From assembly GCF_900177325.1 (NCBI RefSeq), contig NZ_FXBL01000003.1, forward strand, positions 1 through 64,000: a DNA stretch of 64,000 nucleotides, given 5' to 3'. Under the pieces are notes generated by a model. It ran no database searches. It saw only the letters and a program-made list of their open reading frames with translations, and had not been told where the DNA came from. The stretch comes from Mesorhizobium australicum. GTDB taxonomy: Bacteria; Pseudomonadota; Alphaproteobacteria; Rhizobiales; Rhizobiaceae. Numbering within the stretch: position 1 is the stretch's first letter; each line of letters starts with the position of its first letter. The position numbers were made by a program, and so were the translations under genes. Below, one piece after another: positions 1,865 to 60,818 of this stretch.

Positions 1865-1912
1865 TGTCGCTTGGCAGTTAAACGTAAGAATGCGCCTGTT
1901 TCGCTTCGATTG

Positions 1913-1962
1913 AGCATTTAATTATGAGAATCCTGACTGCCGGATTCTCAAATTAACTGCAT
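1913..1962. repeat. Left-end transposase-binding repeats of transposon copy 1
   Basis: Two copies of a motif around ATTCTCA(A/T)AATTAA lie here, one inverted (about 1919-1931) and one direct (1944-1962). They match the right-end repeats at 7572-7641, so they are the likely TniA (TnsB-like) recognition sites. The direct copy overlaps the stop codon end of tniQ. Confidence 0.6.
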
Positions 1963-2814
1963 TTGCAAGGAGGGTTTCGGCCTGCGGGCTTTGGCTATCA
2001 TGTTCTCGGCGGTTCCGGTGAATCGGACCCTGTTATCGCCCATCATGTGACCGCGCAGCATTCGGAGCATTTCCGGCCCGGCACGCTCGACGATGGCTAC
2101 CCCGGCCAGCAGCGCCGGCCGCATGCGAAGCCGGAGAATCGGACTCGCGGGCGTGGGCAGGTTCTCCTGTTCTGCGGCAATGATGCCATCAAGATCCGGA
2201 ATGATGGCGCCGAGCACCCTGAAGCGCCAAAGCTCGTCCTCGCGTGGCGGAGGTAGTGGCGCTCGTCGCATCAAGAGAAGCCGGGCAATATCGGCTGGCG
2301 ATGTCCAGGTTCGGATGCCGCGCTCGGCCTCATCGTCGAGCAGCTTTTCGCCCCGAAGAGCCGCATCGCGATATTGATGGAAAGGGGAGGGGAGTTCGCG
2401 CCCGCCGAGTTCCCGGAACAGGTCTCCACAGTGAGGACAGGTGATGCGCCAACCAAGCAGTTGGCTTCTCAAGGTTGGCCCCGGTTCCCTATGACCGAGA
2501 CTGCAGCTCGAACAGTACTGCAATGGTCTCGCGGCGATCATCCGGCGTGACGACTGCGCGACATTGGCGAAGGTCATTCGACGCACGACGGCCGGCTCGG
2601 TGGCGAACATCCTGGCCAGGCGGATTTCCTGATCGCCGCTCAAATGGAGATCAGCTTCTCGCAGCGAGCGAACTTCCGGCAGGCAATGCCGCAGCATCAC
2701 GAGCGGTGGGACCGCGTAGAAGGCGGCGTGCCGGCTGATCCAGGAGGACAGAAGTTCATCGGCAACCGGTGGCAGACATACCGGCAGATGCCGTTGTGCC
2801 GCCGGTTGCGTCAT
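1948..2814 (-). CDS. tniQ: TniQ-family transposition targeting protein
   Basis: 288-aa TniQ, the TnsD-like targeting or accessory factor of Tn5053-type transposition. The N-terminal segment PPVADELLSSWISR (about residues 15-28) is the usual TniQ start, and a zinc-finger pair follows: C101/C104 in YCSSC and C126/C129 in CPHCG. The start overlaps the tniB stop by 4 bases. The gene is repeated, apparently without change, at 54680-55546. It looks intact, so it could act in trans with the intact tniA of copy 2. Confidence 0.9.
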   Translation of the reverse strand: MTQPAAQRHLPVCLPPVADELLSSWISRHAAFYAVPPLVMLRHCLPEVRSLREADLHLSGDQEIRLARMFATEPAVVRRMTFANVAQSSRRMIAARPLQYCSSCSLGHREPGPTLRSQLLGWRITCPHCGDLFRELGGRELPSPFHQYRDAALRGEKLLDDEAERGIRTWTSPADIARLLLMRRAPLPPPREDELWRFRVLGAIIPDLDGIIAAEQENLPTPASPILRLRMRPALLAGVAIVERAGPEMLRMLRGHMMGDNRVRFTGTAENMIAKARRPKPSLQMQLI

Positions 2815-3692
2815 GCGAATGCCGCCTCGGCATCGAACTCCGGCTCCCAGTTCTCGACCGCTTGGTTGGTGATCTGCTCGCTGCCGTTTCCGATGGCGTC
2901 GATCGCCAGGCTGTTGATCATGTGGAAGATGCTGGCCGTGATGCCCTCGGTGATCTGCAGCATCCGTCGCAGTGATTTCGGCGTGAGCACCGACGGGCGA
3001 CGCAGCGGCGTATTACGCAGGATCGACGCCACCAGGGTTTCGAACTGCTCGTTTGCCGCCCACCTGTTCAGGGTGAACTGCTCGAACCGGCGCGCAAGCT
3101 GGACGTCGCCGCTGATCGCCTCCCGCGCCTCGTTGACGCCGAAGCAGACCAGCGAGATGTTCAGGCGGTTGCTGAGGAAGCGCAGCGTGTTCAGCACAAT
3201 GCGCTGCTCGCGATAGGAACCGGCGAGAATGTTGTGCACCTCGTCGATGACCAGCACCTGTACGCCGATGGCCTCCATGATCCGCAGCGATGCCTGTTCC
3301 ATCTGGGCGATGTCGGCACGCGGTCGCTGCGGCGCCCCGAGAAGGGTGAGCAGTTCGGCGTAGAACCGTCGTTCACCGGGCCTGCTGGTCATTTCCATGG
3401 CGAGCACCGGCGTCCTCAGCGTGCCCGTCACCGGATTGAAGCTCGGTGGGTGCTCGTCCCGGAAGCGCTTCATGATCATCGTCTTGCCCATGCCGCTGTC
3501 GCCATAGATCGCGATCGAAGGCATGCGGGTGCCTCGGGGATGGTCGAGGAGCCGGCTCAGCCGATCGAGGGCCTGCTTGGCGCGCGGGTAGAGAACCCAG
3601 CGGCGCGATCGTATCGCGCGAATGCGTCGGTCGTCCGTTTCGGAAAGCAGCGCGGCCGCGCCAGCGGTCAGGTGGGAGATTTCATCGTTCAT
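2811..3692 (-). CDS. tniB: TniB AAA+ ATPase, transposition regulator
   Basis: 293-aa TniB, a TnsC-like AAA+ ATPase that links target selection to the transposase. Walker A GDSGMGKT sits at residues 64-71 and Walker B VLVIDE at 146-151, followed by the H-N-I-L-A-G segment typical of the family. It lies 6 bp downstream of the tniA stop codon and overlaps tniQ by 4 bases, so the three genes form one transcript in an intact element. In this copy the IS21 insertion upstream probably breaks that transcript. Confidence 0.9.
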   Translation of the reverse strand: MNDEISHLTAGAAALLSETDDRRIRAIRSRRWVLYPRAKQALDRLSRLLDHPRGTRMPSIAIYGDSGMGKTMIMKRFRDEHPPSFNPVTGTLRTPVLAMEMTSRPGERRFYAELLTLLGAPQRPRADIAQMEQASLRIMEAIGVQVLVIDEVHNILAGSYREQRIVLNTLRFLSNRLNISLVCFGVNEAREAISGDVQLARRFEQFTLNRWAANEQFETLVASILRNTPLRRPSVLTPKSLRRMLQITEGITASIFHMINSLAIDAIGNGSEQITNQAVENWEPEFDAEAAFA

Positions 3693-3881
3693 GCCAGCTC
3701 AATCCGTATCCTCGACAAAGGGTACGGGTTTGCTGGAATCGACGCCGCGAAGCGAGCCCCATCCGCCATCATCCACCTTCGATTTCGAAGTCCCGGCCTT
3801 GCCGCGCCGCGCGGCCGCCGTTTTTTGTCAAGCGAATCCAGGAACTGACCCCTTTCTCGAATTGAAGAACTAACCCCCCTT

Positions 3882-4682
3882 TCATTGGTTCGTGGTTTCG
3901 TTGGTCTCTGGCGCCGATCCGGTTTTCTGCAGAAGGCCGGACCGGCGTTTTTCGCGCAGGCGATAGCTGTCGCCCCGGATGGTGATCACCGTCGAATGGT
4001 GCAGCAGGCGGTCCAGAATGGCGGTGGCGACCACAGGATCACCGAAGACATTGCCCCATTCTCCCACCGAACGGTTGGAGGTGATCAGAATCGAGCCCTT
4101 CTCGTAGCGCCGCGACACCAGTTGGAAGAACAGATGGGCGGCATTGGCCTCGAAGGGCAGATAGCCCAGTTCGTCGATGATCAGCAGCTTCGGTCGCGAC
4201 AGGATCGTCAACTGTTTGTCGAGCGTGCCGTCGCTGTGTGCCTTGGCCAGCATTGCGACCAGCGTGGCGGCCGTGACGAACTGCACGTTGTAATTCTGGC
4301 GGATCGCCTCGCGGCCGAGACTGACAGCCAGATGGGTCTTGCCCGTGCCTGGAGGTCCGAGGAACAGGACTGTGTCGCCGTGCGCGATCCAGCGACAGGT
4401 AGCCAGTTCCCTGATCTGACCCTGATCCAGCGATGGCTGAGCATCGAAGTCGAAGCTGTCCAGTTCGCGTACGAACGGGAACTGCGCCAGCTTGCTCGAC
4501 ATGGAGATGCGCCGCTCGTCGCGGCGAGCGATCTCGCGCGACACCAAGAAGGCCAGCGCCTCGCGCAAGGTCATCTTCGAGCGCGCCGCCTCGTCCAGCA
4601 GCGTGTCAAGTTGGTCGCGGATCGCTGTCAGCTTCAGCCGGTCGAGCGTTGCGATCAGGAGGTCGTGATCCACAGTCGTCAT
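3882..4682 (-). CDS. istB: IstB-type helper ATPase of IS21
   Basis: 266-aa AAA+ helper of IS21 transposition, related to DnaC. Walker A GPPGTGKTH lies at about residues 109-117 and Walker B LLIIDELGYLPF near 167-177. I start it at the ATG whose A is shared with the istA stop (TGATG overlap at 4682). A longer frame upstream exists but only shadows istA. The C-terminal region ends LLQKTGSAPETNETTNQ, as in many IS21 helpers. Confidence 0.92.
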   Translation of the reverse strand: MTTVDHDLLIATLDRLKLTAIRDQLDTLLDEAARSKMTLREALAFLVSREIARRDERRISMSSKLAQFPFVRELDSFDFDAQPSLDQGQIRELATCRWIAHGDTVLFLGPPGTGKTHLAVSLGREAIRQNYNVQFVTAATLVAMLAKAHSDGTLDKQLTILSRPKLLIIDELGYLPFEANAAHLFFQLVSRRYEKGSILITSNRSVGEWGNVFGDPVVATAILDRLLHHSTVITIRGDSYRLREKRRSGLLQKTGSAPETNETTNQ

Positions 4683-5971
4683 CACCAGCCCCCTCCGACA
4701 ACCGCCTCGTATTCTGCAAGCGGACGCAACAGGGTGGGAGGGAGAATGTCGATGGGCGCGGCGGCCCGCACCACACCATCGGCACCGGCGACACCGACAA
4801 AATGCGCCCGGTCCACGATGCGTTGTCGCCTTCCCCGGCACAGAGCATGATCGGCAACGACCTGGCCCGCATGCCGGATGATCACACGGCCCGCCAGCAC
4901 GACAACCTGAACGGTCTCGCCGATCAGACGCCAAGGCACCGAGTAGCTGTTCGTGTCGAGGTCGATCGCACAGTCGGCCTGGACCTTGCGCACCAGATCC
5001 CGCAATTGCCCGAACGGCGCACGGCCAGCCAAGGGGCGCAGCGCACCAGCTTCAGCAGCAAACCGCTCTGATGGCGCAATGCCGGTCGTGCCGTGCTCCC
5101 GCTGGTCGGCGACCTCGCGTATCCACCGGTCCAGATGGGCCTCGAACGCAGCCCAGTTCTCGAACCGGCGGCCGGCGATCGCGTTCTTCTTGACGTAGCC
5201 AACCCCGCGCTCATCTTTGCCTTTCGTCCGCGCCCGATATGGCGCACAGGCTCGCGGCGTGAAGCCCCAGTATCGGGCAAAGGCATGCAGGCGGGCATTG
5301 AACTTCACCTCGCGCGTCACCGCGTCATGATGCTCAACCAGGGCTTTGGCATTATCCAGAAGAACTTCCGCCGGAACCCCGCCGAAACGCAGGAAGGAGC
5401 CTTCCATCCCCTCAAACCAGTCCGCCTGACGCTCACGCAGCGAAGGCCGGATATGCATCCGCCGCGAATAGCCCAGTGTTCCCACGAACAGGTGCACTCG
5501 AACCCGCTCACCCCCGATCCAAACGCGAGTGTCACCAAAATCGATCTGCATCTGATGGCCCGGCGCTGTCTCGAAGCGGATCGTCGCGCGCTTCTGCGCC
5601 TTCAATTCCCGCCGCCAGCGCTGCACTCGTAACTCCACCGAGCGGAGACCGATCACGATCCCATGTTCGCTCGCCAGTTCCTGGCGGATAACGTCGGCAT
5701 TGCCGCCATGGCGGAAAAACCGCTCGCGAAGCCAATCATCCAATCCGTCGAAGGCTGTTCGACGACGAGGTTGCCGATAGGCAATCACACCGCCTTCGCG
5801 AAGATATCGCCGAACCGTGTTTCGCGCGCAGCCAAACTCCTGTGCAATCCGCTTCGCTCCCCAGCCTCGTTCATGAAGGCGCAGCATCGCCACAACTTCT
5901 TCCGCTTGAAGCATCGCCTCTCCCTGCATTGTCCCCGAGAATGCAGGTGTCGCCGAAAGCTCTGTCGTCAT
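4682..5971 (-). CDS. istA: IstA-type DDE transposase of IS21
   Basis: 429-aa transposase. An N-terminal HTH (about residues 25-58, GWGAKRIAQEFGCARNTVRR) precedes the DDE core, with D144 in MQIDFGDTRV, D206 in LLDNAKALV and E254 in TKGKDERGVGYV. A C-terminal Mu-type beta-barrel region follows (TNSYSVPWRLIGETV). The most upstream ATG is used; MQGEAMLQAEEV a few codons later is an equally good start. The gene appears complete. Confidence 0.92.
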   Translation of the reverse strand: MTTELSATPAFSGTMQGEAMLQAEEVVAMLRLHERGWGAKRIAQEFGCARNTVRRYLREGGVIAYRQPRRRTAFDGLDDWLRERFFRHGGNADVIRQELASEHGIVIGLRSVELRVQRWRRELKAQKRATIRFETAPGHQMQIDFGDTRVWIGGERVRVHLFVGTLGYSRRMHIRPSLRERQADWFEGMEGSFLRFGGVPAEVLLDNAKALVEHHDAVTREVKFNARLHAFARYWGFTPRACAPYRARTKGKDERGVGYVKKNAIAGRRFENWAAFEAHLDRWIREVADQREHGTTGIAPSERFAAEAGALRPLAGRAPFGQLRDLVRKVQADCAIDLDTNSYSVPWRLIGETVQVVVLAGRVIIRHAGQVVADHALCRGRRQRIVDRAHFVGVAGADGVVRAAAPIDILPPTLLRPLAEYEAVVGGGW

Positions 5972-7571
5972 CTATCCGTCCTCTCAAAAGAGAGGGGGTC
6001 AGTTCTTCCTTTCGTCCGGGGGGCAATTTCTCATTTCGCCTGACATTTTTCTGGTTGCTGCTTCAACCAGTTCGCGCTGCGCGATCGCAGTGCGGACAAT
6101 GGCGCGGGTGTCGACTTCCCGGCGGCCTTTCGCCAGCAGCGTGCGCCGCGCGGTCAGCGCCTCGTGCAGCGTTATCGAAGGCAAGGTCACGTCGGCGTAG
6201 CGGGCTTCCACGAAGTTTCCCGACGGTCGTCGGACGAAGACGCGCGCCATGTCGCGCGGATCATATTTGACGAGCAGGCGTCGGTCCGAACGCCCCACGT
6301 CGGCGCTGAGGGCCGCCGACCAGTAGCGCATGCTGAACAGATGAATGCCGGTCGGCTGCAAGGTGCGCTCCTGTTCAGGCAGGAACGTCAGCCAGAAGCG
6401 AAGCCGGTCCTGTGGCAGCCGAAGTGGAATATCGTTCTCATGCTCCCGCCAGACAGCAATCGGCGGACGGCCCAGACTGCTGTGGATCGACTGTTGGTAG
6501 GACCCTACGATGTCTAGCGCGATGTAACGCTCAAGCTCCCGAAGCGTCAGTGCCGCGTGTCGCTTCGAGTCATATTCGCCCAGCTCCTGCTCGTTGCTGA
6601 ACGTCGTTCCCGGCAGCAGGTGCAGCCTTCCCATCTGTGTGCCGATCAGCCGCTCGATATGGCCACCGAAGCGCGGCTCGCCCGGTGGCCGCCATTCGAT
6701 TGCGATGCCGGCATCCTGGCATCCTCTTTTGAAGGCTCGACTGCGGAAATCCGGACCGTTGTCGACGTGAAGCATGTCCGGCAGACCCGCGACGGGCCAT
6801 TGTTCCGTGATCTCTCGCTCCCTCAACCACGCCGATTTGTCGAACACGGAGTGCAGCAGGCACAGGCTTGTCGACAGCCGGGAGGGCGCGTCCATCGTCA
6901 GATAAAACCCGGTGACCATCCGGCTGCAAACATCCATCGCCAATGTCAGCCATGGCCGGCCGATCGGCTGCCTCGTCTCCTCGTCGACCACAAAGATGTC
7001 GGCCTTGGTATGATCGACCTGGACCACTTCTAGGGGGCGGGAGGCGCCGAACACGCCAGGGACGGCTGTTGTCGCCTTCACGATCTTGCTTTCGCCGCGC
7101 CGCCTCGCGCGCTTCTGTAGGTCGATATCCTTCAGGCGGGCTAAGATTGTTCGGCGATGCGGCGGCTTGTGCCCGGCCGACATGCAGTTCGTCTGCACGT
7201 CCCGGACCAACTGCGAGACGGGCGGCCGGTTCGGGTTCAGGTAGGACGCCTTGATCGTCGTGCGGATGATCTCTTCTCGTCCTTCATCCAGGACGCGATA
7301 ACCTTCCGGCCGTCCACGTTTGCGGTCCACCAGCGACATAACGGTCCCGCCGGCGCGGAACAGCTTGATCAGCCGGTACGCTGTTGCCTGGCTAAGACCG
7401 AGTTCGGCCGCGAGCCCCGCAACGTCTCCGGCCGTCGTGCTATCGGACCGACTCTTCAGGAAGCTGCGGATCGCATCCGCACGCCGGTACGCTTCATCCC
7501 AAAGGGCTTCGTCGATTTCGTCGGGAAATGGATCGTTCATGGCAGGCTCGCGAGGAAACTCTGCGAACCGC

Positions 7572-7641
7572 ATTCTCACATTAAGTGACAAACTCCAAGC
7601 TGAATTATCAAATTAAGTGCCGATTCGCAAATTAGGTGCCG
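7572..7641. repeat. Right-end transposase-binding repeats of transposon copy 1
   Basis: Three direct repeats of 19 bp lie at 7572-7590, 7604-7622 and 7623-7641, with consensus ATT(C/A)(T/G)CA(C/A)ATTA(A/G)GTG. The last two abut. They sit between the tniA start and the element tip, so TniA bound there could also repress its own gene. The same array is at 58079-58148. Confidence 0.65.
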
Positions 7642-7751
7642 ACGCAAGCCACTGAAATCGCTGGAATGCAATTCGCATAATTAAATGGAAAGTCACATCT
7701 AACACCGACAAGCAGAAAGGCGCGCCGTGATCAAACGGCGGGGCGCCCGCC

Positions 7752-8093
7752 ATGATGAATCATCCTGAGGCCTGCACGGCGCTGACCCGGATGGAAGCCC
7801 GCCTCCGGGAGACGCGCCACAACCTGTTCGAGCTCGAACGATCTCTGCGGGAGCGTGCCGAGGATGAAACCATCGACTCTCGGCCGAAGGCACGTCGATA
7901 CAACCGCCGCATGTCCAACTGGACCAGCTTGGACGAGGATGCCTACCTCCGGATCCTGGATAGGCTAGTCAGGAACGCTGTGGCAGATCTCGACCGGCTG
8001 CGGCGCAAGATTGAGCGTCAGGATGTGGCCATCGAAGCGTTGCGCCAAAAATACCGGGTTAACGCCGCCCGGCCCATCTACACGCCTCTTTAG
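7752..8093 (+). CDS. Small hypothetical protein with coiled-coil character
   Basis: 113 aa, not recognised. It is rich in Arg, Leu and Glu with heptad-like stretches (TRMEARLRETRHNLFELERS near 12-31 and LDRLVRNAVADLDRLRRKIE near 69-88), suggesting a helical coiled coil. It is the first gene after the transposon right end, starts at a double ATG (7752/7755) without a clear ribosome site, and points the same way as the core module. It could be the first complete gene of the module or a 5'-shortened remnant. Confidence 0.5.
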   Translation: MMNHPEACTALTRMEARLRETRHNLFELERSLRERAEDETIDSRPKARRYNRRMSNWTSLDEDAYLRILDRLVRNAVADLDRLRRKIERQDVAIEALRQKYRVNAARPIYTPL

Positions 8094-8938: not shown

Positions 8939-11092
8939 ATGGCAAAAAGCGCCATTCAGAAGATCGCAATGAACCCCTCGGAGAACATCGCCTTCGACAA
9001 GCTTGTCTTGTCGCAGGAGAATGTCCGCAGGATAAAGGACGGCGTCACCATCGAGCAGCTCGCCGAGGATATCGGTCGGCGCAAGCTCCTGCAGAGCCTG
9101 AACGTCCGTCCCGTCCTGGACGGAGACGGCGAGGAGACCGGCACCTACGAAGTGCCCGCCGGCGGCCGCCGCTATCTCGCGCTCGGCATTCTGGTCAAGC
9201 AGAAGCGTCTCGCCAAGAACGAGCCGATTCCTTGCATCGTCAATCGCAGCGGAACCACTTCAGCCGAAGAGGACTCGCTTGCCGAGAACGTGCATCGCGA
9301 GAACCTGCATCCGCTCGACCAGTTCCGCGCGTTCAAGGCGCTGAAGGAGCAGGGCCTCGACGTCGAGGAGATCGCCGCCCGCTTCTTCGTCTCGGCTGCG
9401 ACCGTCAAGCAGCGGCTTAGGCTCGCCTCGGTTTCGCCGAAGCTGCTCGAACTCTACGAAAAGGACGAAATACGCCTTGAGCAAATCATGGCGTTTTCTA
9501 TCTCCGACGACCATGCCCGACAGGAGCAGGTCTGGGACCGCATCACCAAAAACCCGAATATGCAGGAGCCTTATTACATCAGGCGCCTGCTGACGGAGAC
9601 TACGGTTCGTGCCGACGATCGCCGTGCAGTCTATGTCGGCGCCGAGGCCTATGAGGCTGCCGGCGGCGTCATCCTGCGAGACCTCTTCGAGCAGGATTCC
9701 GGCGGCTGGTTCCAGGATGCGGCGCTCCTCGAGCAACTGGTCTTCGACAAGCTCAAGGTCGATGCCGAGGCGATCCGCGCCGAAGGCTGGAAGTGGGTCG
9801 AAGCGGCGATCAGCTTCCCCTACGGCCACACCTCCGGTATGCGGCGGGTCTATGCCGAACCGGCGGAGATGAGCGCCGAGGAGATCGCTCGGCACGACGC
9901 GGCGAAAGCCGAGTATGATGCGCTCGACGCCAAATATGCCGAGATGGAGGACGCCGACCAGGAGATCGAGGACAAGCTCGATCAGCTCGGCGCCGAACTC
10001 GACAGTTTTGGCGATCGTCCCCAGGTTTACGATCCGGAGAACAAGGCCATCGCCGGAGCGTTCCTCACCCTCGGCGCCAACGGCCAGCTCCAGGTCGAAG
10101 CCGGCTTCGTCCGTCCCGAGGATGAGCCGCGGGCCGAAGTCGACGACGAAGAGGAGGCTGACGGCGACGATCGCCACCCGTCGCAGCCAGACGAAGACGG
10201 CGCCAATCGTGTCGTCGTCAACGGTCGATCCGCGAACGGAACGTCCGACGGCGCTGATGAGCCGGAGGATGAAGGCATCAAGCCGCTGCCCGAACGGCTC
10301 GTCTTCGATCTCACCGCGCAGAAGACATTGGCGCTGCGTAACGCTCTTGCCGGTGACGTCGACATCGCCTTCGTCACTGTTCTCCATGCCCTCGTGCTGC
10401 AGGTGTTCTACCGCTTCGCTAAGAACAGCTGCCTCGAGATCAACATGACGAGCAACAGTTTCGGCCAGGTCCAGGGTCTCGCCGAGACTCCCTGGGCGAA
10501 GGAGATCGCCGAGCGTCACGAGGCATGGGACCGGGATATGCCGGACAGCGACAAGCTGTGGGAGTTCCTGCTGGGTCTCGATGAAGCAAGCCGCAAGGCG
10601 CTGCTCGCGCACTGCGTCTCGCTGTCGGTCAACGCCGTGGTCGAGCCCTGGAACAAGCGCCCGGGTGCGCTTGCCCATGCCGATGCGCTCGCGGCAACGC
10701 TTGGCTTCGACATGGTCGAAGCTGGCTGGTCGCCCACCGTCGACAACTATCTCGGCCGCGTCACCAAGGCCCGGATCGTTCAGGCGGTGCGCGAGGCCCG
10801 CGGCGAGGACTCCGCGCAGCTGATCGACCACATGAAGAAGGACCTGATGGCCCGCGAGGCGGCTCGCCTTCTCGAAGGGTCGAACTGGCTGCCCGAGCCG
10901 TTGCGTTTTGATGGCGACGCCGCGGTTGCCGATGCCGGCGAGACCGTCACCGACGAGGTGACGGATGAGACGGCTCTCGACGACGATGCCGCCGAGCTGC
11001 CGGCCTTCCTCGCTGACGATGCCGGCACATCATCCGATGAACCGGTGACCGTCGCCGAAGATGACACCGACCACCTTCAGGCCGCCGAGTAA
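8939..11092 (+). CDS. ParB-like nuclease/partition-domain protein with long C-terminal extension
   Basis: 717 aa. The N-terminus has a ParB-type domain: LSQENVRR near residue 22, a degenerate box II in PAGGRRYLAL (about 66-75) and ENVHRENLHPLDQFRAF near 111-127, then an HTH (VEEIAARFFVSAATVKQRL). The rest is very acidic (for example a D/E-rich stretch around 395-440 and again in the last 50 residues) and has no domain I can name. It is far longer than a classical ParB (~300 aa), and true partition genes exist separately (repA/repB). It is more likely a core DNA-processing or regulatory protein. I start it at the ATG 9 bases after GGAG; METLTMAKS (8924) is an alternative. Confidence 0.8.
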   Translation: MAKSAIQKIAMNPSENIAFDKLVLSQENVRRIKDGVTIEQLAEDIGRRKLLQSLNVRPVLDGDGEETGTYEVPAGGRRYLALGILVKQKRLAKNEPIPCIVNRSGTTSAEEDSLAENVHRENLHPLDQFRAFKALKEQGLDVEEIAARFFVSAATVKQRLRLASVSPKLLELYEKDEIRLEQIMAFSISDDHARQEQVWDRITKNPNMQEPYYIRRLLTETTVRADDRRAVYVGAEAYEAAGGVILRDLFEQDSGGWFQDAALLEQLVFDKLKVDAEAIRAEGWKWVEAAISFPYGHTSGMRRVYAEPAEMSAEEIARHDAAKAEYDALDAKYAEMEDADQEIEDKLDQLGAELDSFGDRPQVYDPENKAIAGAFLTLGANGQLQVEAGFVRPEDEPRAEVDDEEEADGDDRHPSQPDEDGANRVVVNGRSANGTSDGADEPEDEGIKPLPERLVFDLTAQKTLALRNALAGDVDIAFVTVLHALVLQVFYRFAKNSCLEINMTSNSFGQVQGLAETPWAKEIAERHEAWDRDMPDSDKLWEFLLGLDEASRKALLAHCVSLSVNAVVEPWNKRPGALAHADALAATLGFDMVEAGWSPTVDNYLGRVTKARIVQAVREARGEDSAQLIDHMKKDLMAREAARLLEGSNWLPEPLRFDGDAAVADAGETVTDEVTDETALDDDAAELPAFLADDAGTSSDEPVTVAEDDTDHLQAAE

Positions 11093-16922: not shown

Positions 16923-16962
16923 TCCCCAGATTTCCGTTGGCGCAGAAGCATGCTCTGCCGCC

Positions 16963-16972
16963 AGAGGCAGAG
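16963..16972 (+). promoter_or_regulatory. AGAGGCAGAG leader motif, strawberry-notch gene
   Basis: The shared 10-mer lies 79 bases before the start at 17051. Further down the leader, an inverted repeat GAGAGTGTG ... CACACTCTC (about 17006-17037) forms a stem just before the start region. Confidence 0.4.
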
Positions 16973-17050
16973 CAGGGCCGGGAGGTGTGCGGCCCGGCCG
17001 GCGCAGAGAGTGTGCCGGAGGGCAGACACACTCTCTCGAAGGACATCTCC

Positions 17051-20000
17051 ATGAACATTGTCACGACCACGTCGGCCGTCGCGCGGACGGCCGCTCCCCT
17101 TGCCGCGGCGGCATCCGACACCCTCGGTGCCGCCCAGGCGATCCACCAGGCGGCCATCCAGCTTCTGCCCTTCCTGGAACTGGGTAAGTCCGTCACCACC
17201 GCCGCACTGCGCGTTGCCATGACCGACAGCTTCGGCGGTACGGATGCGCAAGGTTTCTGGGTCTGGAAGGATGCCTATGAGGCGCTCGAAGCCGTCCAGA
17301 TCCTGTTTCTGCGCCGCTACGGATCGGCGGTCCTGGCCCGGTCGACCTCGCCTGAGGCGACACTGGCGATGATGAAGCGCGTCGCCGATCTCGTTCCCAC
17401 CCACACGCGGCGCTCTGACGAGAGCCAGGCCATGCAGCAGCTGTCGACGCCGCTGCCACTCGCCTTCGTCACCGCTCACGCCGCCGCGATCTCCGCGTCG
17501 GACCTTATTCTCGAACCTTCGGCCGGTACCGGCCTGCTCGCCGTCCATGCAGAGATCGCCCGGGCCTCGCTCGTGCTCAACGAACTCGCCGCCACGCGCG
17601 CCGATCTGCTCGGCCTGCTGTTCCCCCGCGTTCCTGTCTTTCGTCACGACGCCGCCCATATCGACGACCATCTCAACGCCGGCATCGAGCCCTCCGTGGT
17701 GCTGATGAACCCGCCCTTTACGGTCGGCGCTCATGTCGACGGCCATGTCGCAGACGCGGCATGGCGGCATCTATCGTCAGCCTTCGCACGCCTTCGCCCC
17801 GGCGGACGCATGGTCGCCATCACCGGCACCGGCCTTTCTCCCGAAAACCCTAAATGGCGGCCCGCCTTCGAGCGGCTGCAGCAGCAGGGCAGGGTGGTCT
17901 TCACCGCGGCGATCGACGGTCGCGTCTACGCCCGTCACGGCACCACCGCCGAAACCCGCCTCACCGTCATCGACAAGATTCCGGCGACGGACCCGTCGGG
18001 ATTCGTCACGTCGCCCGGCAAGGCAGACGATGTCGAGACGCTGCTTTCCTGGGTCTCGGATCTGCCGCCCCGCACACCGGGCGGCTTTCCAGACTCGATC
18101 AGCGCCCTGTCGAACGGCGTGCTGCACAATGCCGCCATGCCGATGGCAGCCCGATCCGCGGGACGATCGGCACCGATCGCCGTCTCGCCAGCCACCCGGA
18201 AAGCCGTCAGCCCGGCCCGTCCGGTTGTCCGGGCGAAGCCCACCCGACCGCTGGTGCAAGACGCCACGCCTGCCGTTCCCTTAGCTTATGAACTGCGCGA
18301 CTGGAGGCCGGAGGAGGGCGGCCGGCTCAGCGACACGATCTATGAGCCTTACGCGCTGCAGTCGATCGACATTCCGCGCGCCAAGCCGCATCCGACGCCG
18401 CTGGTCCAGTCGGCCGCCATGGCAGCGGTCGCGCCGCCAAAGCCAACCTACAGGCCACTTCTACCTGATGCGATCATCGACGAGGGCCTGCTCTCTGCCG
18501 CGCAGATCGAAAGCGTGATCTATGCCGGCGAGGCGCATGACGGCCATCTCGCCGGAGCCTGGACCGTCGACGAGACCTGCGACATCGTCTCCGCCGCGCC
18601 TGAAGGTGCCGAGAATGCGGTCCGCTTCCGCCGCGGATGGTTTCTGGGTGACGGCACCGGCTGCGGCAAGGGCAGGCAGGTCGCCGGGATCATCCTCGAC
18701 AACTGGCTGCAAGGCCGTCGGCGCGCTATCTGGATCTCCAAGTCGGACAAGCTGCTGGAAGATGCCCAGCGCGATTGGGCCGCACTCGGCCAGGAACGCC
18801 TCCTCGTCCAGCCGCTCTCGCGCTATCGGCAGGGTACGCCGATCCGCCTTGCCGAAGGCATCCTCTTCACAACCTACGCGACGCTGCGCTCGCAGGAACG
18901 CGACGGCAAGAAATCCCGAATCGCCCAGATCATCGACTGGGTCGGAAAGGATTTCGATGGCGTCATCATCTTTGATGAAGCGCATGCCATGGCGAACGCC
19001 GCCGGCGGCAAGGGCGAGCGTGGCGATGTCGCGCCCTCGCAGCAGGGCAAGGCAGGCCTGCGCCTGCAGCACGCGCTACCCGACGCCCGCGTCGTCTATG
19101 CGTCGGCGACCGGCGCTACTGCGGTCGAGAATCTGGCCTATGCACAGCGTCTCGGCATCTGGGGCAGCGAGGATTTTCCCTTCGCCAACCGGGCCGAGTT
19201 CGTCGCGGCGATCGAGGATGGCGGCGTCGCCGCGATGGAAGTATTCGCCCGCGATTTGAAATCGCTCGGGCTCTACACGTCGCGATCGCTCTCCTATGAC
19301 GGCGTCGAATACGACCTCCTCGAGCACGCGCTGACCGAGGAGCAGATCCGCATCTACAATGCCTATGCGGACGCCTTCCAGGTCATCCACAACAATTTGA
19401 CCGCCGCGCTCGAGGCGGCCAACATCACCAGCGAAACCGGCACGCTGAACCGCAACGCGAAGGCGGCGGCACGCTCAGCGTTCGAGAGTACCAAGCAGCG
19501 CTTCTTCAGCCATCTCATCACCTCGATGATGACGCCGACGCTGATCGGTGCGATCGAGCAGGACCGCGCCGACGGTCACTCGTCGGTCGTGCAGATCGTC
19601 TCGACCGGCGAGGCTCTGATGGAACGGAGGCTGGCCGAGATTCCCACCGAGGAATGGTCGGACCTGCATGTCGACGTGACGCCGCGCGAGTACGTCGGAG
19701 GGTACTTGATGCACTCCTTCCCGACGCAGCTCTTCGAGGAATATTCGGACGCGGAAGGAAATATCTATTCGCGGCCCGTGCATGACGTAGACGGCAATCC
19801 CGTCCAGTGCCGCGAGGCGGTCCGTCGCCGCGACGAAATGATCGAGAGGATCGCCTCGCTGCCGCCTGTCGGCAGCGCGCTCGATCAGATCATCCATCAT
19901 TTCGGCACCGATGTTGTCGCCGAGGTGACGGGCCGCTCACGCCGCATCGTCAAAAAGACCGGCCGCGACGGCATCGATCGGCTCGCCGTCGAAAACCGGC

Positions 20001-21505
20001 CGGGATCGGCAAACCTGGCCGAAACCCAAAGCTTCATGGATGACGACAAAAGCGTCCTGATCTTTTCCGATGCCGGCGGCACCGGCCGCTCGTATCACGC
20101 CGATCTTGGCGCCCGGAACCAGAGATTGCGCAAGCACTATCTGCTGGAGGCCGGCTGGCGCGCCGACAATGCCATCCAGGGGCTCGGTCGCACGCACCGC
20201 ACCAACCAGGCGCAGCCACCTTTGTTTCGGCCGATGGCCGCCAATGTAAAGGCGGGCAAGCGCTTCCTGTCGACGATCGCGCGGCGGCTCGACACGCTCG
20301 GGGCAATCACACGCGGCCAGCGCCAGACCGGCGGGGCAGGCCTGTTCCGCGCCGAGGACAATCTCGAAAGCCCCTATGCCCGCGCGGCCCTGCGCCAATT
20401 CTATTTCCTGCTGCACCAGGGGAAGATCGACGGCTGCTCGCTGACCACCTTTGAGAACGCCACCGGCCTGTCACTCACCACGGACGAGGGCGGGTTGCGC
20501 GACGAGCTGCCGCCGATCACGACCTGGCTCAACCGCCTGCTGGCGCTGCGCATCGAAACCCAGAACCTGTTGTTCAAGGTGTTCGAGCAGCTGATGACGG
20601 CCAAGGTCGAAGGCGCCATCGCCGCCGGCATTTACGACAAGGGACTGGAGACGATTACGGCCGAGAGCATCACCGTCAACGATCGGCGCACCGTTTACAC
20701 CCATCCGGTCTCAGGTGCGCAGTCGCATGTGCTAACGGTGACGCGCAAGGACCGCATCCGGCCGCTAGGCCTGGCCGACGCACTGGCGATCGCCCGCGCG
20801 GAGCCTCAATCGGTCCTGCTGGTCAACACACGGTCGAGCCGCGCGGCGATCCAACTGCCGACGGCCAGCCTCATGCTCGACGACGGCGCGATAGAACACC
20901 GCGTACGCCTGCTGCGGCCTACCGACGAGCTGCGCTTCGGCCTCGATGCCCTTGCCGAAACCCACTGGCAGCCGGCCGACCGAAAGCTGTTTGGCGAGTT
21001 GTGGCAGGCCGAGGTCGCCGCCGTTCCGGAGTTCACTACCAGCAGCTTCCACATTGTCAGCGGCCTTCTGCTACCGATCTGGCGGCGCCTGCCCGAGCAT
21101 GATTGCCAAGTCTACCGGATCCAGACCGATGCCGGCGAACGCATCATCGGCCGTCACATCGCGTCGACGCTGGTCGCCACGCTGCTCCGCAATCTCGGCA
21201 TCGATCATGTGCCGACGCTGGCGCCGGAGGAGGCATGGATCGGCTTGATTGATGGACGGATCAGCCTGCAGCTTGCCGACGGCCTGGTCCTGCGCCGCAG
21301 CCGTGTCATGAACGACTACCGCGTCGAGTTGATGGGCTTCACCGATGCGATGATCCCGCGGCTGAAGGCGCTCGGCCTGATCTCCGAAATCATCTCCTGG
21401 AAGCTCAGGCTGTTCATTCCGACCGGCGCGCATGGCGCGGCCATGCTGGCATTGCTTCTCGCTAGCCATACGCTGCTCGGCGTCACCGATCGATCGGCGG
21501 TTTGA
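17051..21505 (+). CDS. Methyltransferase-like / strawberry-notch helicase protein
   Basis: 1484 aa. The N-terminal third has a Rossmann methyltransferase-like fold: motif I LEPSAGTG at residues 154-161 and a catalytic-type NPPF at 220-223, as in N6-adenine methylases. After a Pro/Ala-rich linker (about 360-450) comes an SF2 helicase of the strawberry-notch family: Walker A GDGTGCGKGR at 533-542, DEAH box in VIIFDEAHAM (D642), and motif VI QGLGRTHRTNQ at 1043-1053. Phage P1 DarB, which protects injected DNA from restriction, has a comparable methylase-plus-helicase layout, so a role in DNA protection or transfer is plausible but inferred. I start at the ATG after the leader; the longer frame overlaps the upstream gene. 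A 5'-deleted paralogue lies at 58205. Confidence 0.85.
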   Translation: MNIVTTTSAVARTAAPLAAAASDTLGAAQAIHQAAIQLLPFLELGKSVTTAALRVAMTDSFGGTDAQGFWVWKDAYEALEAVQILFLRRYGSAVLARSTSPEATLAMMKRVADLVPTHTRRSDESQAMQQLSTPLPLAFVTAHAAAISASDLILEPSAGTGLLAVHAEIARASLVLNELAATRADLLGLLFPRVPVFRHDAAHIDDHLNAGIEPSVVLMNPPFTVGAHVDGHVADAAWRHLSSAFARLRPGGRMVAITGTGLSPENPKWRPAFERLQQQGRVVFTAAIDGRVYARHGTTAETRLTVIDKIPATDPSGFVTSPGKADDVETLLSWVSDLPPRTPGGFPDSISALSNGVLHNAAMPMAARSAGRSAPIAVSPATRKAVSPARPVVRAKPTRPLVQDATPAVPLAYELRDWRPEEGGRLSDTIYEPYALQSIDIPRAKPHPTPLVQSAAMAAVAPPKPTYRPLLPDAIIDEGLLSAAQIESVIYAGEAHDGHLAGAWTVDETCDIVSAAPEGAENAVRFRRGWFLGDGTGCGKGRQVAGIILDNWLQGRRRAIWISKSDKLLEDAQRDWAALGQERLLVQPLSRYRQGTPIRLAEGILFTTYATLRSQERDGKKSRIAQIIDWVGKDFDGVIIFDEAHAMANAAGGKGERGDVAPSQQGKAGLRLQHALPDARVVYASATGATAVENLAYAQRLGIWGSEDFPFANRAEFVAAIEDGGVAAMEVFARDLKSLGLYTSRSLSYDGVEYDLLEHALTEEQIRIYNAYADAFQVIHNNLTAALEAANITSETGTLNRNAKAAARSAFESTKQRFFSHLITSMMTPTLIGAIEQDRADGHSSVVQIVSTGEALMERRLAEIPTEEWSDLHVDVTPREYVGGYLMHSFPTQLFEEYSDAEGNIYSRPVHDVDGNPVQCREAVRRRDEMIERIASLPPVGSALDQIIHHFGTDVVAEVTGRSRRIVKKTGRDGIDRLAVENRPGSANLAETQSFMDDDKSVLIFSDAGGTGRSYHADLGARNQRLRKHYLLEAGWRADNAIQGLGRTHRTNQAQPPLFRPMAANVKAGKRFLSTIARRLDTLGAITRGQRQTGGAGLFRAEDNLESPYARAALRQFYFLLHQGKIDGCSLTTFENATGLSLTTDEGGLRDELPPITTWLNRLLALRIETQNLLFKVFEQLMTAKVEGAIAAGIYDKGLETITAESITVNDRRTVYTHPVSGAQSHVLTVTRKDRIRPLGLADALAIARAEPQSVLLVNTRSSRAAIQLPTASLMLDDGAIEHRVRLLRPTDELRFGLDALAETHWQPADRKLFGELWQAEVAAVPEFTTSSFHIVSGLLLPIWRRLPEHDCQVYRIQTDAGERIIGRHIASTLVATLLRNLGIDHVPTLAPEEAWIGLIDGRISLQLADGLVLRRSRVMNDYRVELMGFTDAMIPRLKALGLISEIISWKLRLFIPTGAHGAAMLALLLASHTLLGVTDRSAV

Positions 21506-21520
21506 GCGAGGGAGGCGACC

Positions 21521-22564
21521 ATGACCGGCTCGGCATCCGAGCTGGCACGCCGTCTCGGCGAAGATGCCGAGGCGGTGTGCCGCGAATATCTCTCCAATGG
21601 GTATCGCTCCGGCAACCACTGGATCGTCGGTGATGTCCGCAACACGCGCGGCCGCTCCATGCATGTGCGCCTCAAGGCTAACGTCAAAGGTCCGGCAGGC
21701 AAATGGGTGGACGAGGCTACGTCCGAATTCGGCGATCTGCTCGATGTGATCCGCGAAAGCTGCGGCCTGGTCGAGTTCCGCGAGATCGCCGACGAGGCCC
21801 GCCGATTTCTCGCCCTGCCGCGCCCGCAGCCGCTGGTCTCCGACCAGTCCCGCCAGGCTGCCGCGGCACGCGGCTCCCCTGAGGCCGCGCTACGCCTGTT
21901 CGCCATGTCGCAGTCGATCGCCGGCACGCTGGCCGAACGCTATCTTGCCGGCCGCGGTATTCTCCTGACCGCGTGTGAGCGCGCCCTGCGCTTCCACCCG
22001 GGCTGCTACTACCGAGACCTCGTGACCGGCGAGACGCAGATGCTCCCAGCTCTGATTGCCGCAGTCACCGACATCGAGGGGCGGATCACCGGCCTGCAGC
22101 GCACCTGGCTCGACCCGGCTGGCAATGGCAAGGCGCAACTCGCCGCTCCTCGCCGCTCGCTCGGCAACCTTCTCGGCAACGCCATCTGGCTCGGCCTGGA
22201 GTCTGGTGCTCCCGTGCCGGTCATGGCCGCCGGCGAGGGTTTCGAGACGATGGCCTCACTCCGGACCGTGATGCCTTCGTTGCCTGTGGCCGCTGCCACC
22301 TCGGCCAATCACCTTGCCGGCCTGACCTTCCCGCCTGGCTGCCGTCGCCTCTACATCGCGGCCGATGCAGATGCCGCCGGCCGGCATGGCATCGAGCGTC
22401 TCAGCCAGCGCGCAGGCGAGGCCGGAATCCTCGCTCTGGCATTGCGGCCGCGGCTCGGCGACTTCAACGACGATCTGCGCCATCTCGGCCCCGGCCATCT
22501 CGCGGCATGGCTCGGTGATCAGCTCGCCCCGGACGATGCCCGTGTCTTGCTGCCGTCCGCATGA
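21521..22564 (+). CDS. Toprim-domain, primase-like protein
   Basis: 347 aa, 15 bases after the helicase gene with GAGGCGACC upstream. The N-terminal half (NHWIVGDVRNTRGRSMHVRL, then WVDEATSEFGDLLDVI) resembles the primase-associated region of plasmid Toprim proteins; the Toprim core is visible as AAGEGFETMAS with the catalytic-type Glu, and LYIAADADAAG with the D-x-D pair. A second copy (60819) stands in the same place after the second helicase gene, so helicase and Toprim protein form a conserved pair. A role in priming or processing plasmid DNA is inferred. Confidence 0.8.
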   Translation: MTGSASELARRLGEDAEAVCREYLSNGYRSGNHWIVGDVRNTRGRSMHVRLKANVKGPAGKWVDEATSEFGDLLDVIRESCGLVEFREIADEARRFLALPRPQPLVSDQSRQAAAARGSPEAALRLFAMSQSIAGTLAERYLAGRGILLTACERALRFHPGCYYRDLVTGETQMLPALIAAVTDIEGRITGLQRTWLDPAGNGKAQLAAPRRSLGNLLGNAIWLGLESGAPVPVMAAGEGFETMASLRTVMPSLPVAAATSANHLAGLTFPPGCRRLYIAADADAAGRHGIERLSQRAGEAGILALALRPRLGDFNDDLRHLGPGHLAAWLGDQLAPDDARVLLPSA

Positions 22565-22640
22565 CCGACGCGCGAGGCCGGCAGGCGGGCAGTGCGCAGC
22601 GTCACCGGCAATCCCGCAGGCATGGCGGGAGTCTCACCGG

Positions 22641-22815
22641 GAGGCCGCGCCCGCGGCCTGCCTGAGAGGCGATCCCTGCCACCCCCCGGTCACGGCCGCA
22701 ACGGCTTGCGCCGTCCTCCGCTTCGCTCCGGCCTTCGGTGCGGCCGCGCCCGGCGCGCGGCCGGGTTTCGCTGTCAGGCCGCGATGGGCGCGGCCACAAC
22801 CGACGGAGACACGCC
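22641..22815 (+). promoter_or_regulatory. Conserved GC-rich leader of the DUF2493 gene, copy 1
   Basis: This 175-base untranslated stretch matches 61951-62124 with only about five differences, while the first 180 coding bases after it differ at about 13 sites. It begins with the palindrome GGCCGCG-CC-CGCGGCC and contains further GC-rich inverted repeats. The strong constraint suggests a structured leader RNA or an overlapping signal. Confidence 0.5.
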
Positions 22816-23362
22816 ATGACGTACGAGCTTCCTTTCGACGACGCCTACGAGCCCTATCACGCCTCGTCGCCGACCGATCGCGTCATCCTCGAACTACAGA
22901 TGTACGGCCATCGCCCGCATCAGGACGAGCCCGACCCCCGTCCGCTGCCCGACGACGAGGTGATCCGGGCCGGCCTCGCCGGGATCGTCGAGACCTTCGC
23001 CGGCATGCTCGGCGACACGAGGCTGGAACCCGACCTCGACGACCTGCTCTGGAGCTTCGCCAACGTCTTCCACCGCGCCGCCGAGCGCGTCGCCCGAAGC
23101 CTCGACCGCAACGAGGAGGCGCAGCGCTCGAGCCAGAATGAACAGGATGGTTCCGAGGTGAAGTCCGTCGAGCTGGAACGGCTCACGGCTGAGGGCATCA
23201 CCTATATCGAGCGCCGCAATGTGCTCGAAATCATGCGCGACGAGGCCGCTGACCTCTACGAGGCGCAAACGGGCTCTGCATGGCGGCCGCGAACCGGATC
23301 CAAGGTCTCCCACCAGGCGATTACGGCGGCGGTGATCGACTCCCGCGACTTCCTCGCCGCAC
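22816..23362 (+). pseudogene. DUF2493 gene truncated by IS6-family element
   Basis: Begins MTYELPFDDAYEPYHASSPT and runs about 182 codons, until the IS6-family element at 23363. The complete paralogue at 62125-63066 has 313 aa and shows that the lost part is the C-terminal DUF2493/SLOG domain with GGSPRGAERIAACW. What remains is an N-terminal helical region of unknown role. The frame reads a few codons into the insertion before stopping at 23380. Confidence 0.85.
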
Positions 23363-24183
23363 GGTTTTGTTGCAACCGCTGACTGGAACCACAAAGAGGC
23401 CTGACCCGAGGCCAATTATGCGGCAAGAATTGCGAACTGCTCGGCCAGGGACGGATTCGGATTGAAGGCGTATCTCGCCTGTCGCTTGCGCATCATATGA
23501 ACCATCTCGATGCCGGACAGGATGATCGCGGCTGATCCCTGTGATTTGAAGCCAAGCATTGGCCGGACGCGGCGTTTGATGCGCCGATGATCCTGTTCAA
23601 TCCGATTATTCAAGTATTTACTCTTGCGTATTTCGATCGGCTTCAGCCGGCGTCGGGAGCGATCTTGCAAGCGATTTGTGGTGTCGCAGGAAACGATAGC
23701 CTCGTGGTTGGTCTGACTACCATCGATGACGACGCGGTCGGGCCGGCCATGACGTGCCAGTGTCTTCCGGAAAAACCGCTTGGCCGACGGCAAGTCGCGC
23801 TGCTCGCTGAACCAGAATTCGACCGTATCGCCGACACTGTCGATGGCACGGTAAAGGTACATCCACTGGCCACGGACCTTGATGTAGGTCTCGTCTATAT
23901 GCCATCTGCCGGTCACGCCCCGCTTGCGCCGGTTGAACCGCTCCAGCAGTAGTGGTGCGAAACGGACGGTCCAACGGTGAATGGTCGTGTGGTCGACGGC
24001 AATGCCCCGCTCGGCCATCATCTCTTCTAGATCACGCAGGCTCAGACTGTAGGCCAGGTACCAGCGCACGCAAAGCAGGATCACGGACTGGTCGAACTGG
24101 CGGCCCTTGAACATTCAATCCTCCGAAAATGTCAGAGGCGCTACTTGCCACAGTGACGGTATTCAAAACGTTGCAACATAACC
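23363..24183 (-). mobile_element. IS6-family insertion sequence, 821 bp
   Basis: Ends are GGTTTTGTTGCAAC (left) and the reverse complement of GGTTATGTTGCAAC (right), 13 of 14 bases matching, of IS6/IS26 style. It carries a single transposase gene. The 8 flanking bases (CGCCGCAC / ATCTGGAA) do not match, so it marks a rearrangement junction, as is common for replicative IS6 transposition: core module I on its left, an integrase remnant on its right. Confidence 0.9.
23416..24114 (-). CDS. IS6-family DDE transposase
   Basis: 232 aa with the compact IS6 layout: HTH around residues 25-50 (DLEEMMAERGIAVDHTTIHR), then D74 in WHIDETYIKV, D131 in VVIDGSQTN and E173 in LNNRIEQDHRRIKRR. Length and motifs are complete, so it is probably active. 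Confidence 0.93.
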   Translation of the reverse strand: MFKGRQFDQSVILLCVRWYLAYSLSLRDLEEMMAERGIAVDHTTIHRWTVRFAPLLLERFNRRKRGVTGRWHIDETYIKVRGQWMYLYRAIDSVGDTVEFWFSEQRDLPSAKRFFRKTLARHGRPDRVVIDGSQTNHEAIVSCDTTNRLQDRSRRRLKPIEIRKSKYLNNRIEQDHRRIKRRVRPMLGFKSQGSAAIILSGIEMVHMMRKRQARYAFNPNPSLAEQFAILAA

Positions 24184-48460: not shown

Positions 48461-48472
48461 AAACCGCAAAAG

Positions 48473-48522
48473 AAAAAGGCCCCCGAACGTCACCGCTGCG
48501 GAAGCCCTTCTCAGATCTAGGC
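48473..48522 (-). ncRNA. Antisense counter-transcribed RNA of repABC (inc-alpha)
   Basis: The 155-base repB-repC gap encodes the usual antisense RNA on the minus strand. A promoter TTGACA (complement of 48552-48557) and GATTCT (complement of 48529-48534) with 17-base spacing predicts a start near 48522. The RNA ends in an 8-bp stem (GGCTTCCG with CGGGGGCC, 48478-48485 and 48499-48506) followed by five U. About 50 nt long. Such RNAs limit repC expression and determine incompatibility. Confidence 0.8.
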
Positions 48523-48615
48523 AATCAGAGAATCACATTTCCGCGAATCACTGTCAAGAGTCTCGGCGTCGATTGGGCGAGCAGATTTCTTTTGCCTGAT
48601 TGAAGGTGAAGGAAA

Positions 48616-50653: not shown

Positions 50654-50767
50654 GAAAAAGCCCGCTGCCGGGAGGAGGTGGCAGCGGGCTCGATTTTCGA
50701 ACACGGCGCGGGAGGAGGTGCACCGCATCCAGCATCGGCATCGCATCTGGGAGGAGTAGATGGCCGA
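50654..50767 (-). ncRNA. ar14/'cuckoo'-like small RNA with CCUCCUCCC motifs
   Basis: On the minus strand three C(U)CCUCCC motifs occur (complements of 50749-50756, 50710-50720 and 50670-50680), about 40 bases apart. The last is the loop of a perfect 10-bp terminator stem (GCCCGCTGCC / GGCAGCGGGC, 50660-50669 and 50680-50689) followed by TTTTT. A promoter TTGCAA (50796-50801) and TATGAT (50774-50779), 16 bases apart, predicts a start near 50767 and a ~113-nt RNA. Exposed anti-Shine-Dalgarno CCUCCUCCC motifs are the mark of the ar14/cuckoo small RNAs of Rhizobiales, which pair with ribosome sites of mRNAs. Confidence 0.75.
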
Positions 50768-56424: not shown

Positions 56425-56430
56425 GCCAGC

Positions 56431-60803: not shown

Positions 60804-60818
60804 GCCAGGGAGGCGATC

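Follow-up and report, generated by a model that had tools for sequence, protein, structure and literature searches.

A conserved hairpin leader upstream of a methylase-helicase gene and of antirestriction genes in Mesorhizobium australicum and its relatives

The methylase-helicase gene and its partners

The window analysed here, a stretch of 64,000 nucleotides (nt) at positions 1–64000 of the 232,173-bp contig C3 of Mesorhizobium australicum (a genome of four contigs, 5.86 Mb), contains an intact gene, sno, for a protein of 1484 amino acids (aa) with a methylase-like and a helicase part. Genes for a Toprim protein and a DUF2493 protein follow on the same strand, and upstream of sno lies a copy of a hairpin leader, whose family form has 83 nt and 23 pairs (Table 1). 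This leader is common to sno and to PF03230 antirestriction genes, which is the strongest reason for placing sno among anti-restriction genes. The leader is new, as far as searches of Rfam 15 and of the literature show; sno is not new as a kind, and its function is one that we infer from sequence.

The helicase part of sno is of the Strawberry-notch subtype, with Pfam matches to AAA_34 (residues 446–771) and Helicase_C_4 (residues 943–1201); its Walker A motif GDGTG.GKG and its DE.H motif are invariant in eight divergent sno proteins. The methylase part, for which Pfam gives no match, resembles adenine methylases of the gamma class: the motifs TP (S132-T133-P134), EPSAGTG and NPPF (N220-P221-P222-F223) are invariant in 43 sequences, PADLOC mad2 (E 9.3e-9) and the PHROG family "DNA methyltransferase" (2e-7) match it, and AlphaFold (mean predicted local distance difference test score, pLDDT, 77) with Foldseek indicates an HsdM/M.BseCI-like fold. 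Residues 345–405 and 422–434, where a target-recognition domain would sit, fall below pLDDT 50, and no separate domain of this kind is seen. At the N terminus, where the DarB-type dyad has an LPD36 domain with a GXGU motif, AlphaFold predicts helices; inspection by eye revealed no GXG[GAS] motif, a search with the LPD36 model not having been made. The first-pass annotation of this DNA, which had described a 1484-aa fusion of a methylase-like domain (SAGTG, NPPF) and a strawberry-notch helicase, is borne out by these domains and invariant motifs. Sequence searches found no solved structure for sno or the DUF2493 protein.

In the copy next to intact sno (copy 1), the Toprim gene starts 15 bases past the sno stop codon, as already annotated. 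Its product contains DUF7146 and Toprim_3 domains, and the top Foldseek matches of its AlphaFold model (mean pLDDT 92) are Aquifex DnaG (E 2e-11), E. coli DnaG and T7 primase, with a template modelling score of only about 0.4. The catalytic E, the D-x-D and the DFN[DE] motif are present; E239, D284, D314 and N316 are invariant in 49 sequences, and D282 is kept in at least 90%. With this fold and these motifs the protein is like the Toprim primases of mobile elements (TraC1/DnaG type), from which it differs in being small and stand-alone. Its N-terminal part probably sits where DnaG has the zinc-binding domain, and the zinc-ligand-like motif has presumably gone: a Sphingobium relative keeps CPAH...C..GC, whereas the rhizobial form lacks such a motif.

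The third gene of copy 1 had been annotated as encoding a DUF2493 SLOG protein. Its product aligns only to residues 1–183 of a 313-aa relative and matches neither SLOG/YAcAr nor any other Pfam family, so the SLOG domain is lost. At 58205–63066, where the same gene order had been annotated, the Toprim and YAcAr genes are intact (PF10686, E 2e-29, for the latter), but sno begins at residue ~618 and lacks the methylase part and Walker A. A full trio is therefore found in neither copy, with DUF2493 broken in copy 1 and sno in copy 2, and the description of a module present twice fails as regards two working modules. Intact trios are found on other replicons of this genome, plasmid C2 and the chromosome C4 (around 440 kb), and a further chromosomal copy, around 170 kb, carries an internally deleted sno.

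The leader hairpin and the genes behind it

The fold of the window leader (16958–17053) has a z score of −3.31, and none of 200 shuffled sequences is as stable. The family structure was drawn by hand on a MAFFT seed alignment of 17 sequences picked for clean alignment (19 were prepared; L075 and L086 were omitted). In this seed 91.8% of the cells assigned to pairs do pair, against 88.5% after shuffling, and 11 cells carry double changes against 3.8 (0 of 500 shuffles); pairing drops to 61% or less when the partners are slid. Model R1 was built from the seed and model R2 from 83 matches of 82 sources, most of them picked as having matches, so that the resulting 83-row model-fitted alignment (A10) leans toward the structure; there 90.3% of 1875 cells pair, against 81.9% in shuffled alignments, with 137 double changes against 46.6 (0 of 500). 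RNAalifold on the first MAFFT alignments (85, 80 and 43 rows) had returned almost no structure or another one, and the hand-drawn structure was used instead.

The placement of the leader was read from 80 survey loci, kept from at least 530 relatives in representative genomes; all have at least 61% identity and, by record title, they come from several alphaproteobacterial orders. The leader stands directly upstream of sno in 75 of the 80 loci (70 at E≤1e-3) and, in 74 of these 75, ends 11–17 nt before the start codon. It is lacking in L050, L080, L111 and L116, while L046 is cut off at a contig end and cannot be tested.

Two scans of whole genomes gave a similar distribution. The genome of the window and 100 relatives yielded 29 matches at E≤0.01, of which 23 lie next to sno, five within 12 kb upstream of it and one in a block without sno; all 29 thus fall in such blocks, and the 21 genomes that contain sno include each of the 17 that gave a match. 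Across the class (385 genomes, E≤1e-3) there were 18 matches: 15 before sno, at about 8–14 nt, one before a PF03230 gene, one before a RadC gene and one unassigned (L155). Both scans used stricter filters, at which weak matches are lost, and are partly dependent on the model, since genomes G000 and G094 occur in both sets, some loci of the 101 genomes fed R2, and the class genomes may overlap the survey loci.

Nineteen further leader copies were found at E<0.005, all on the strand of the block, and 17 of them end 10–16 nt before an ATG. Behind these 17 lie eight antirestriction genes (seven assigned to PF03230 by Pfam and that of L122 by near-identity to L087), six DUF6878 genes (four by Pfam and two by blastp, at L087, L117, L110, L062, L035 and L122) and three genes without an assigned Pfam family, namely two of a 123-aa family in one locus and one for a 333-aa protein; as L087 and L122 are nearly identical, these counts are not all independent. 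Further targets from the genome searches are PF03230 genes in G022, G055 (two) and G262, a RadC gene in G380 and a gene for a 138-aa protein without a Pfam match in G064. Pfam names PF03230 "Antirestriction protein"; we take it to be the ArdB/KlcA family.

In the locus with the two 123-aa genes, L052, the leader copies lie at 182–262 and 6244–6327, each before one of the genes; the proteins are 72% identical, and the one tested has no Pfam match. They are candidates for an unknown anti-defence family.

In Rfam 15, the window leader overlaps only a chance-level GlsR26 match on the opposite strand (E-value mode; E 1.1, 21.4 of 100 bits), and no family matches the leaders of L058 and L083 (E-value mode) or of L006, L039 and L135 (gathering mode). 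The "ssNA-helicase" family was dropped as an identity for the leader: Rfam gave no match, and the sole paper with the term is, going by its excerpts, about folding software. A search of viral contigs with one exact leader pattern gave no matches, and in the openly licensed literature we found no earlier description of a conserved antirestriction RNA leader.

The block, its placement and its proposed role

The block is widespread and conserved in order far beyond close relatives. The neighbourhood survey suggested in the first-pass annotation bears out the co-occurrence of the three genes: a Toprim gene begins no more than 340 nt downstream of sno in 70 of 74 testable survey loci, within 700 nt in two more, and is missing in two, while DUF2493 follows on the same strand in 64 of 66, at 0.9–2.5 kb in 59 and further away in five, and is missing in two. 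L085 and L102 are the loci without Toprim, and L085 and L105 those without DUF2493 in the stretch. Upstream of sno, a ParB-like gene lies on the same strand in 62 of 68 testable loci. Homologues of the ArdC-type zincin, some of them partial, are present in 31 of the 80 loci, and together with the PF03230 genes they form the anti-defence neighbours of the block. An element inside the Sphingobium plasmid pCHQ1 has the usual gene order; two Sphingomonadales plasmids differ, with Toprim ahead of sno and DUF2493 7 kb away or not annotated in the stretch.

In PLSDB 755 plasmid records match sno, 411 of them over at least 80% of its length, and 401 of the 755 are typed as conjugative; phage records give five weak matches, none covering 80% or more. 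The 101 genomes contain 46 YAcAr genes above the cut-off, and for 33 of them sno is no more than 10 kb away. Eight of the other 13 loci were examined, and seven of them hold DUF932, ParB-like, Toprim and DUF2493 genes with no sno match. The order of DUF932 and the ParB-like gene is swapped in L128, L130 has two Toprim genes, and the eighth locus has DUF2493 without Toprim or sno.

Outside the Alphaproteobacteria, sno relatives were seen on a Methylomonas plasmid (L043, about 40% identity) and a Nostoc plasmid (L037, about 50%), the latter with no Toprim or DUF2493 gene annotated beside it.

The position of sno relative to relaxase genes was examined for 36 rows of merged sno matches from the 101 genomes, including truncated or decayed copies and one interrupted sno counted as two rows, by searching for two relaxase families within 30 kb. 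A relaxase is near in 24 rows, and in all 24 it lies downstream on the same strand at 7–22 kb (10 of the first family and 14 of the second). The same layout is seen for 29 of the 30 YAcAr genes with a near relaxase, out of 46 in all. The second family is RlxS-like (E 4e-175, below the cut-off of that model); genes of the first follow mobC, and their product shares 28% identity (E 6e-35) with a protein that PF03432 matches. In 15 annotated records a relaxase lies in the stretch in eight (VirB/MOBP plasmids, a TraA/MOBQ plasmid, a trb-type element and a Nostoc plasmid), each time downstream on the strand of sno; the other seven, one of which carries no annotation, have none in the stretch. Since the relaxase is downstream, and relaxase genes typically lie on the lagging side of the origin of transfer (oriT) (PMC11541004, excerpts), the block would be on the leading side and transcribed toward oriT, a direction that, by our own geometry, can use the entering strand as template. 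Many conjugative plasmids of soil and water bacteria seem to have this block in their leading region, the part that enters first.

The Sinorhizobium megaplasmids CP050559.1, NZ_CP021794.1 and NZ_CP140299.1 also carry decayed sno pieces, on the strand of traA and at a distance of about 8 kb from it, which look like relics of this layout.

Our overall reading, to which we give a probability of about 0.6, is that this is a leading-region block of a conjugative repABC plasmid, in which sno would serve anti-restriction in the recipient, the Toprim protein would serve priming, and the leader would control an establishment set. The helicase part of sno would translocate along plasmid DNA that has just entered, and the methylase part would mark its adenines, protecting it from the restriction enzymes of the new host. 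Synthesis of the complementary strand would most probably be primed or assisted by the Toprim protein, with the DUF2493/YAcAr protein as a putative nucleotide-binding partner. The hairpin would act in the sno mRNA on translation and, being common to PF03230, DUF6878 and RadC genes, could join them into one co-regulated set. This reading starts from what is directly observed, namely the domains, the conserved motifs, the neighbourhood, the orientation relative to the relaxase, the covarying leader and its gene targets.

Several points weigh against it. Since the ParB-like, Toprim and DUF2493 genes are kept in seven of the eight loci without sno, sno is an optional member of the block. Leading-region status is read from relaxase position, and for 12 of the 36 sno rows neither searched family has a member within 30 kb; the first of these families stays below every Pfam and NCBIfam cut-off (MobP1, E 1.5e-7). 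The window leader is itself divergent (34.5 bits), and in its near clade of 12 sequences covariation is seen at just one of 21 predicted pairs. No gene lies at the usual spacing behind two of the 19 further leader copies (L136 and L128), and G002 and G004 have sno with no reported leader match, in scans with stricter filters. Leader matches before ParB-like, ArdC and DUF932 genes (E 0.0077–0.38) overlap the start codon or are out of register, and were dropped. As for the hairpin being read in RNA, the sense strand of A10 has slightly fewer G.U pairs than shuffled alignments (190 against 203.5; 1990 of 2000 at least as high), and the seed alignment is weak on both counts (G.U 40 against 38.0, 269 of 2000 as high; C.A 5 against 7.3, 124 of 2000 as low); besides, a model-fitted alignment favours G.U over C.A. 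DarB of phage P1, with which the first-pass annotation compared sno for its layout, is a weak anchor, its mechanism being called undefined in the 2024 paper cited below.

Iyer et al. (2017, PMC5512222; excerpts) already reported plasmid methylase-helicase dyads, Strawberry-notch ones among them, and drew the comparison with DarB. Like the DarB-type dyad of that study, sno combines an EcoKI/TaqI-like adenine methylase with TP and NPP[YF] motifs and a fused SWI2/SNF2-type helicase of superfamily 2 (SF2). Unlike P1 DarB, it is a stand-alone plasmid protein with a Strawberry-notch helicase and no phage virion context, and unlike the dyads in those excerpts it has Toprim and DUF2493 genes as neighbours and a conserved RNA leader in front; neither SLOG nor YAcAr occurs in the main text of PMC5512222. 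In a 2024 paper the DarB mechanism is called undefined, and darB plasmids alleviated EcoKI restriction without the protein (PMC11109961, excerpts). The leading-region anti-defence islands of Samuel et al. (2024; PMC11541004) are similar in relaxase side, orientation and the presence of orphan methylases together with antirestriction genes; the word "helicase" does not occur in the main text of that paper, and its excerpts do not mention an RNA leader. PF03230 and ArdC genes occur in the same blocks as sno, and the former bear the same leader, although these proteins and their mechanisms are unrelated to sno; ArdC is needed in recipients against HsdRMS (PMC7213743, excerpts). On the trio, or on DUF2493 with plasmids, the openly licensed literature gave nothing beyond PMC5512222.

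The suggestion by the first-pass annotation of an undescribed anti-restriction or DNA-entry system was thus partly right in observation and is partly supported in interpretation. The conserved neighbourhood, the leading-region-like placement and the leader common with PF03230 genes agree with such a role, while a trio acting as a single obligate system is not supported. The leader and, as far as searches show, the whole block are undescribed; plasmid methylase-helicase dyads are not (PMC5512222, excerpts).

The best of the alternatives, which we consider doubtful, is that the block aids replication or priming, with Toprim and the ParB-like protein as a core for second-strand synthesis or stability, sno as its helicase and methylation serving strand discrimination. 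The DnaG/T7-primase-like Toprim fold and the retention of Toprim and the ParB-like gene in seven of the eight sno-less loci suit it; against it, leader copies at E<0.005 head sno, antirestriction, DUF6878 and a few unassigned genes, none having been seen before Toprim or a replication gene.

A second alternative, unlikely in our judgement, concerns the hairpin, which could be a single-strand-DNA promoter (Frpo-like) for transcription of the entering T-strand instead of an RNA leader. Such promoters are known from other leading regions (PMC11541004, excerpts), and the leading-region side and orientation of the block would suit one, but the hairpin is fixed 11–17 nt before start codons, where a promoter would leave almost no leader. 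In the sense strand of A10, C.A mismatches are also depleted (42 against 73.9 shuffled, 0 of 2000 as low) with G.U nearly at the shuffled level, the caveat of a fitted alignment applying here too. The G.U/C.A asymmetry is largely base composition, with C.A clearly the more avoided, and the mismatch pattern appears to fit a structure read in mRNA better than one in the entering strand. The hairpin is thus likely to work as RNA, and what counts most here is its short, constant distance from start codons.

A resident defence or restriction-modification system carried by plasmids, as the methylase, the SF2 helicase and the mad2 match might suggest, is improbable, because no nuclease was found among the six proteins searched, in which PADLOC matches only mad2 on the methylase part, and the genes with the same leader include PF03230 antirestriction genes. 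Equally hard to sustain is one obligate three-part machine of sno, Toprim and DUF2493, despite the tight gene order in most of the 80 loci, given the seven sno-less blocks, the loci lacking Toprim or DUF2493 and the other order in two Sphingomonadales plasmids.

Within the preferred leading-region reading, a more far-reaching proposal is tentative: the leader may be a new family of cis-regulatory RNA, a mobile hairpin that would govern jointly how methylase-helicase, PF03230, RadC and DUF6878 genes are translated, as an establishment regulon of alphaproteobacterial conjugative elements. The GAGAG segments conserved in the leader, and likewise its loop GAGAGAGC, are able to pair with one and the same GCTCTC strand, so that the hairpin may be a switch opening in the new recipient. 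If this proposal holds, DUF6878, the 123-aa family and the 138-aa and 333-aa proteins would be new anti-defence genes. Many leading-region plasmid genes lack an assigned role, and a searchable leader that picks out antirestriction genes is a route to further anti-defence genes in alphaproteobacterial plasmids and integrative elements. It also makes the function of the methylase-helicase testable, predicting joint control with PF03230 genes and an effect only in restricting recipients, where before there was only a vague resemblance to DarB.

The replicon and the two module copies

The window carries repABC replication genes, two Tni transposons and further backbone genes besides the two module copies (Table 1). 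A second repABC-like set lies on C3 at about 97–101 kb.

Table 1. Features of the window.
Feature	Positions	Strand	Remarks
sno, methylase-helicase gene	17051–21505	+	intact, 1484 aa
Methylase part of sno, residues ~24–340	17120–18070	+	AlphaFold, Foldseek, motifs
Helicase part of sno, residues 446–1201	18386–20653	+	AAA_34 and Helicase_C_4
Leader element of sno (model R2)	16962–17038	+	divergent member; ends 12 nt before start codon; 34.5 bits, E 3.4e-5
Toprim gene, copy 1	21521–22564	+	intact, 347 aa; Pfam
DUF2493 gene, copy 1	22816–23382	+	truncated remnant, 188 aa; SLOG domain lost
sno, copy 2	58203–60803	+	5'-truncated, starts at residue ~618 of 1482; methylase part and Walker A missing
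Toprim gene, copy 2	60819–61877	+	intact, 352 aa
DUF2493/YAcAr SLOG gene, copy 2	62125–63066	+	intact, 313 aa
ParB-like gene of the block	8939–11089	+	89% identity to 714-residue pMDW2 protein; HTH_ParB match, ParB_N match below cut-off
repABC replication genes	46236–49824	+	with ctRNA_p42d 48466–48511 (−) and S-element 48552–48618
DUF1173 gene	50956–52149	−	same backbone
DUF932 gene	52363–53556	+	same backbone
TniA-TniB-TniQ transposon	54597–58204	−	abuts truncated sno copy 2; repeat comparison
Second Tni transposon	1865–7697	−	100% identical to other copy over both repeat stretches; 2.2-kb insert at 3826–6045

The two module copies are 85.8% identical in DNA over 18909–23360 and 58204–62669, yet the Tni transposons adjoining them, in direct orientation with one at each junction of the two plasmid segments, are identical over repeated stretches of 1961 and 1652 bp. 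A recent duplication of the module is ruled out by this difference at 14% of bases beside identical transposon repeats, and C3 is best read as two related plasmids that have fused, one module being broken in each, or alternatively as an assembly join at the identical repeats. When the segment 7698–58204 is circularised, the gene order of pMDW2 is restored around a small gene split into 54087–54200 and 7932–8084; the same gene is in two pieces, 0.8 kb apart, on plasmid C2 as well. The ratio of non-synonymous to synonymous substitution rates, computed with truncated copies included, is 0.05–0.09 for sno (0.09 against the copy on plasmid C2), 0.18 for Toprim and 0.05 for DUF2493, and such low values suggest that the modules were broken recently.

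Pfam matches to TniQ, TniB and rve/Mu-transpos_C were read on the left Tni copy, the last being TniA-like. No matching 5-mers were seen by eye in the flanks of the Tni ends, and clean transposition with target duplication was rejected there. The insert in the left transposon is flanked by TTTTT.

Three regions of C4 in the genome of the window (G000), at about 157–174, 429–447 and 1865–1887 kb, resemble conjugative elements and hold RlxS/VirD2-type relaxases together with DUF2493 genes; one of them contains an internally deleted sno, and the third (1865–1887 kb) has no sno match. Adjoining the DUF1173 gene of the window, an Rfam match to the small RNA ar14 lies at 50654–50772 on the minus strand.

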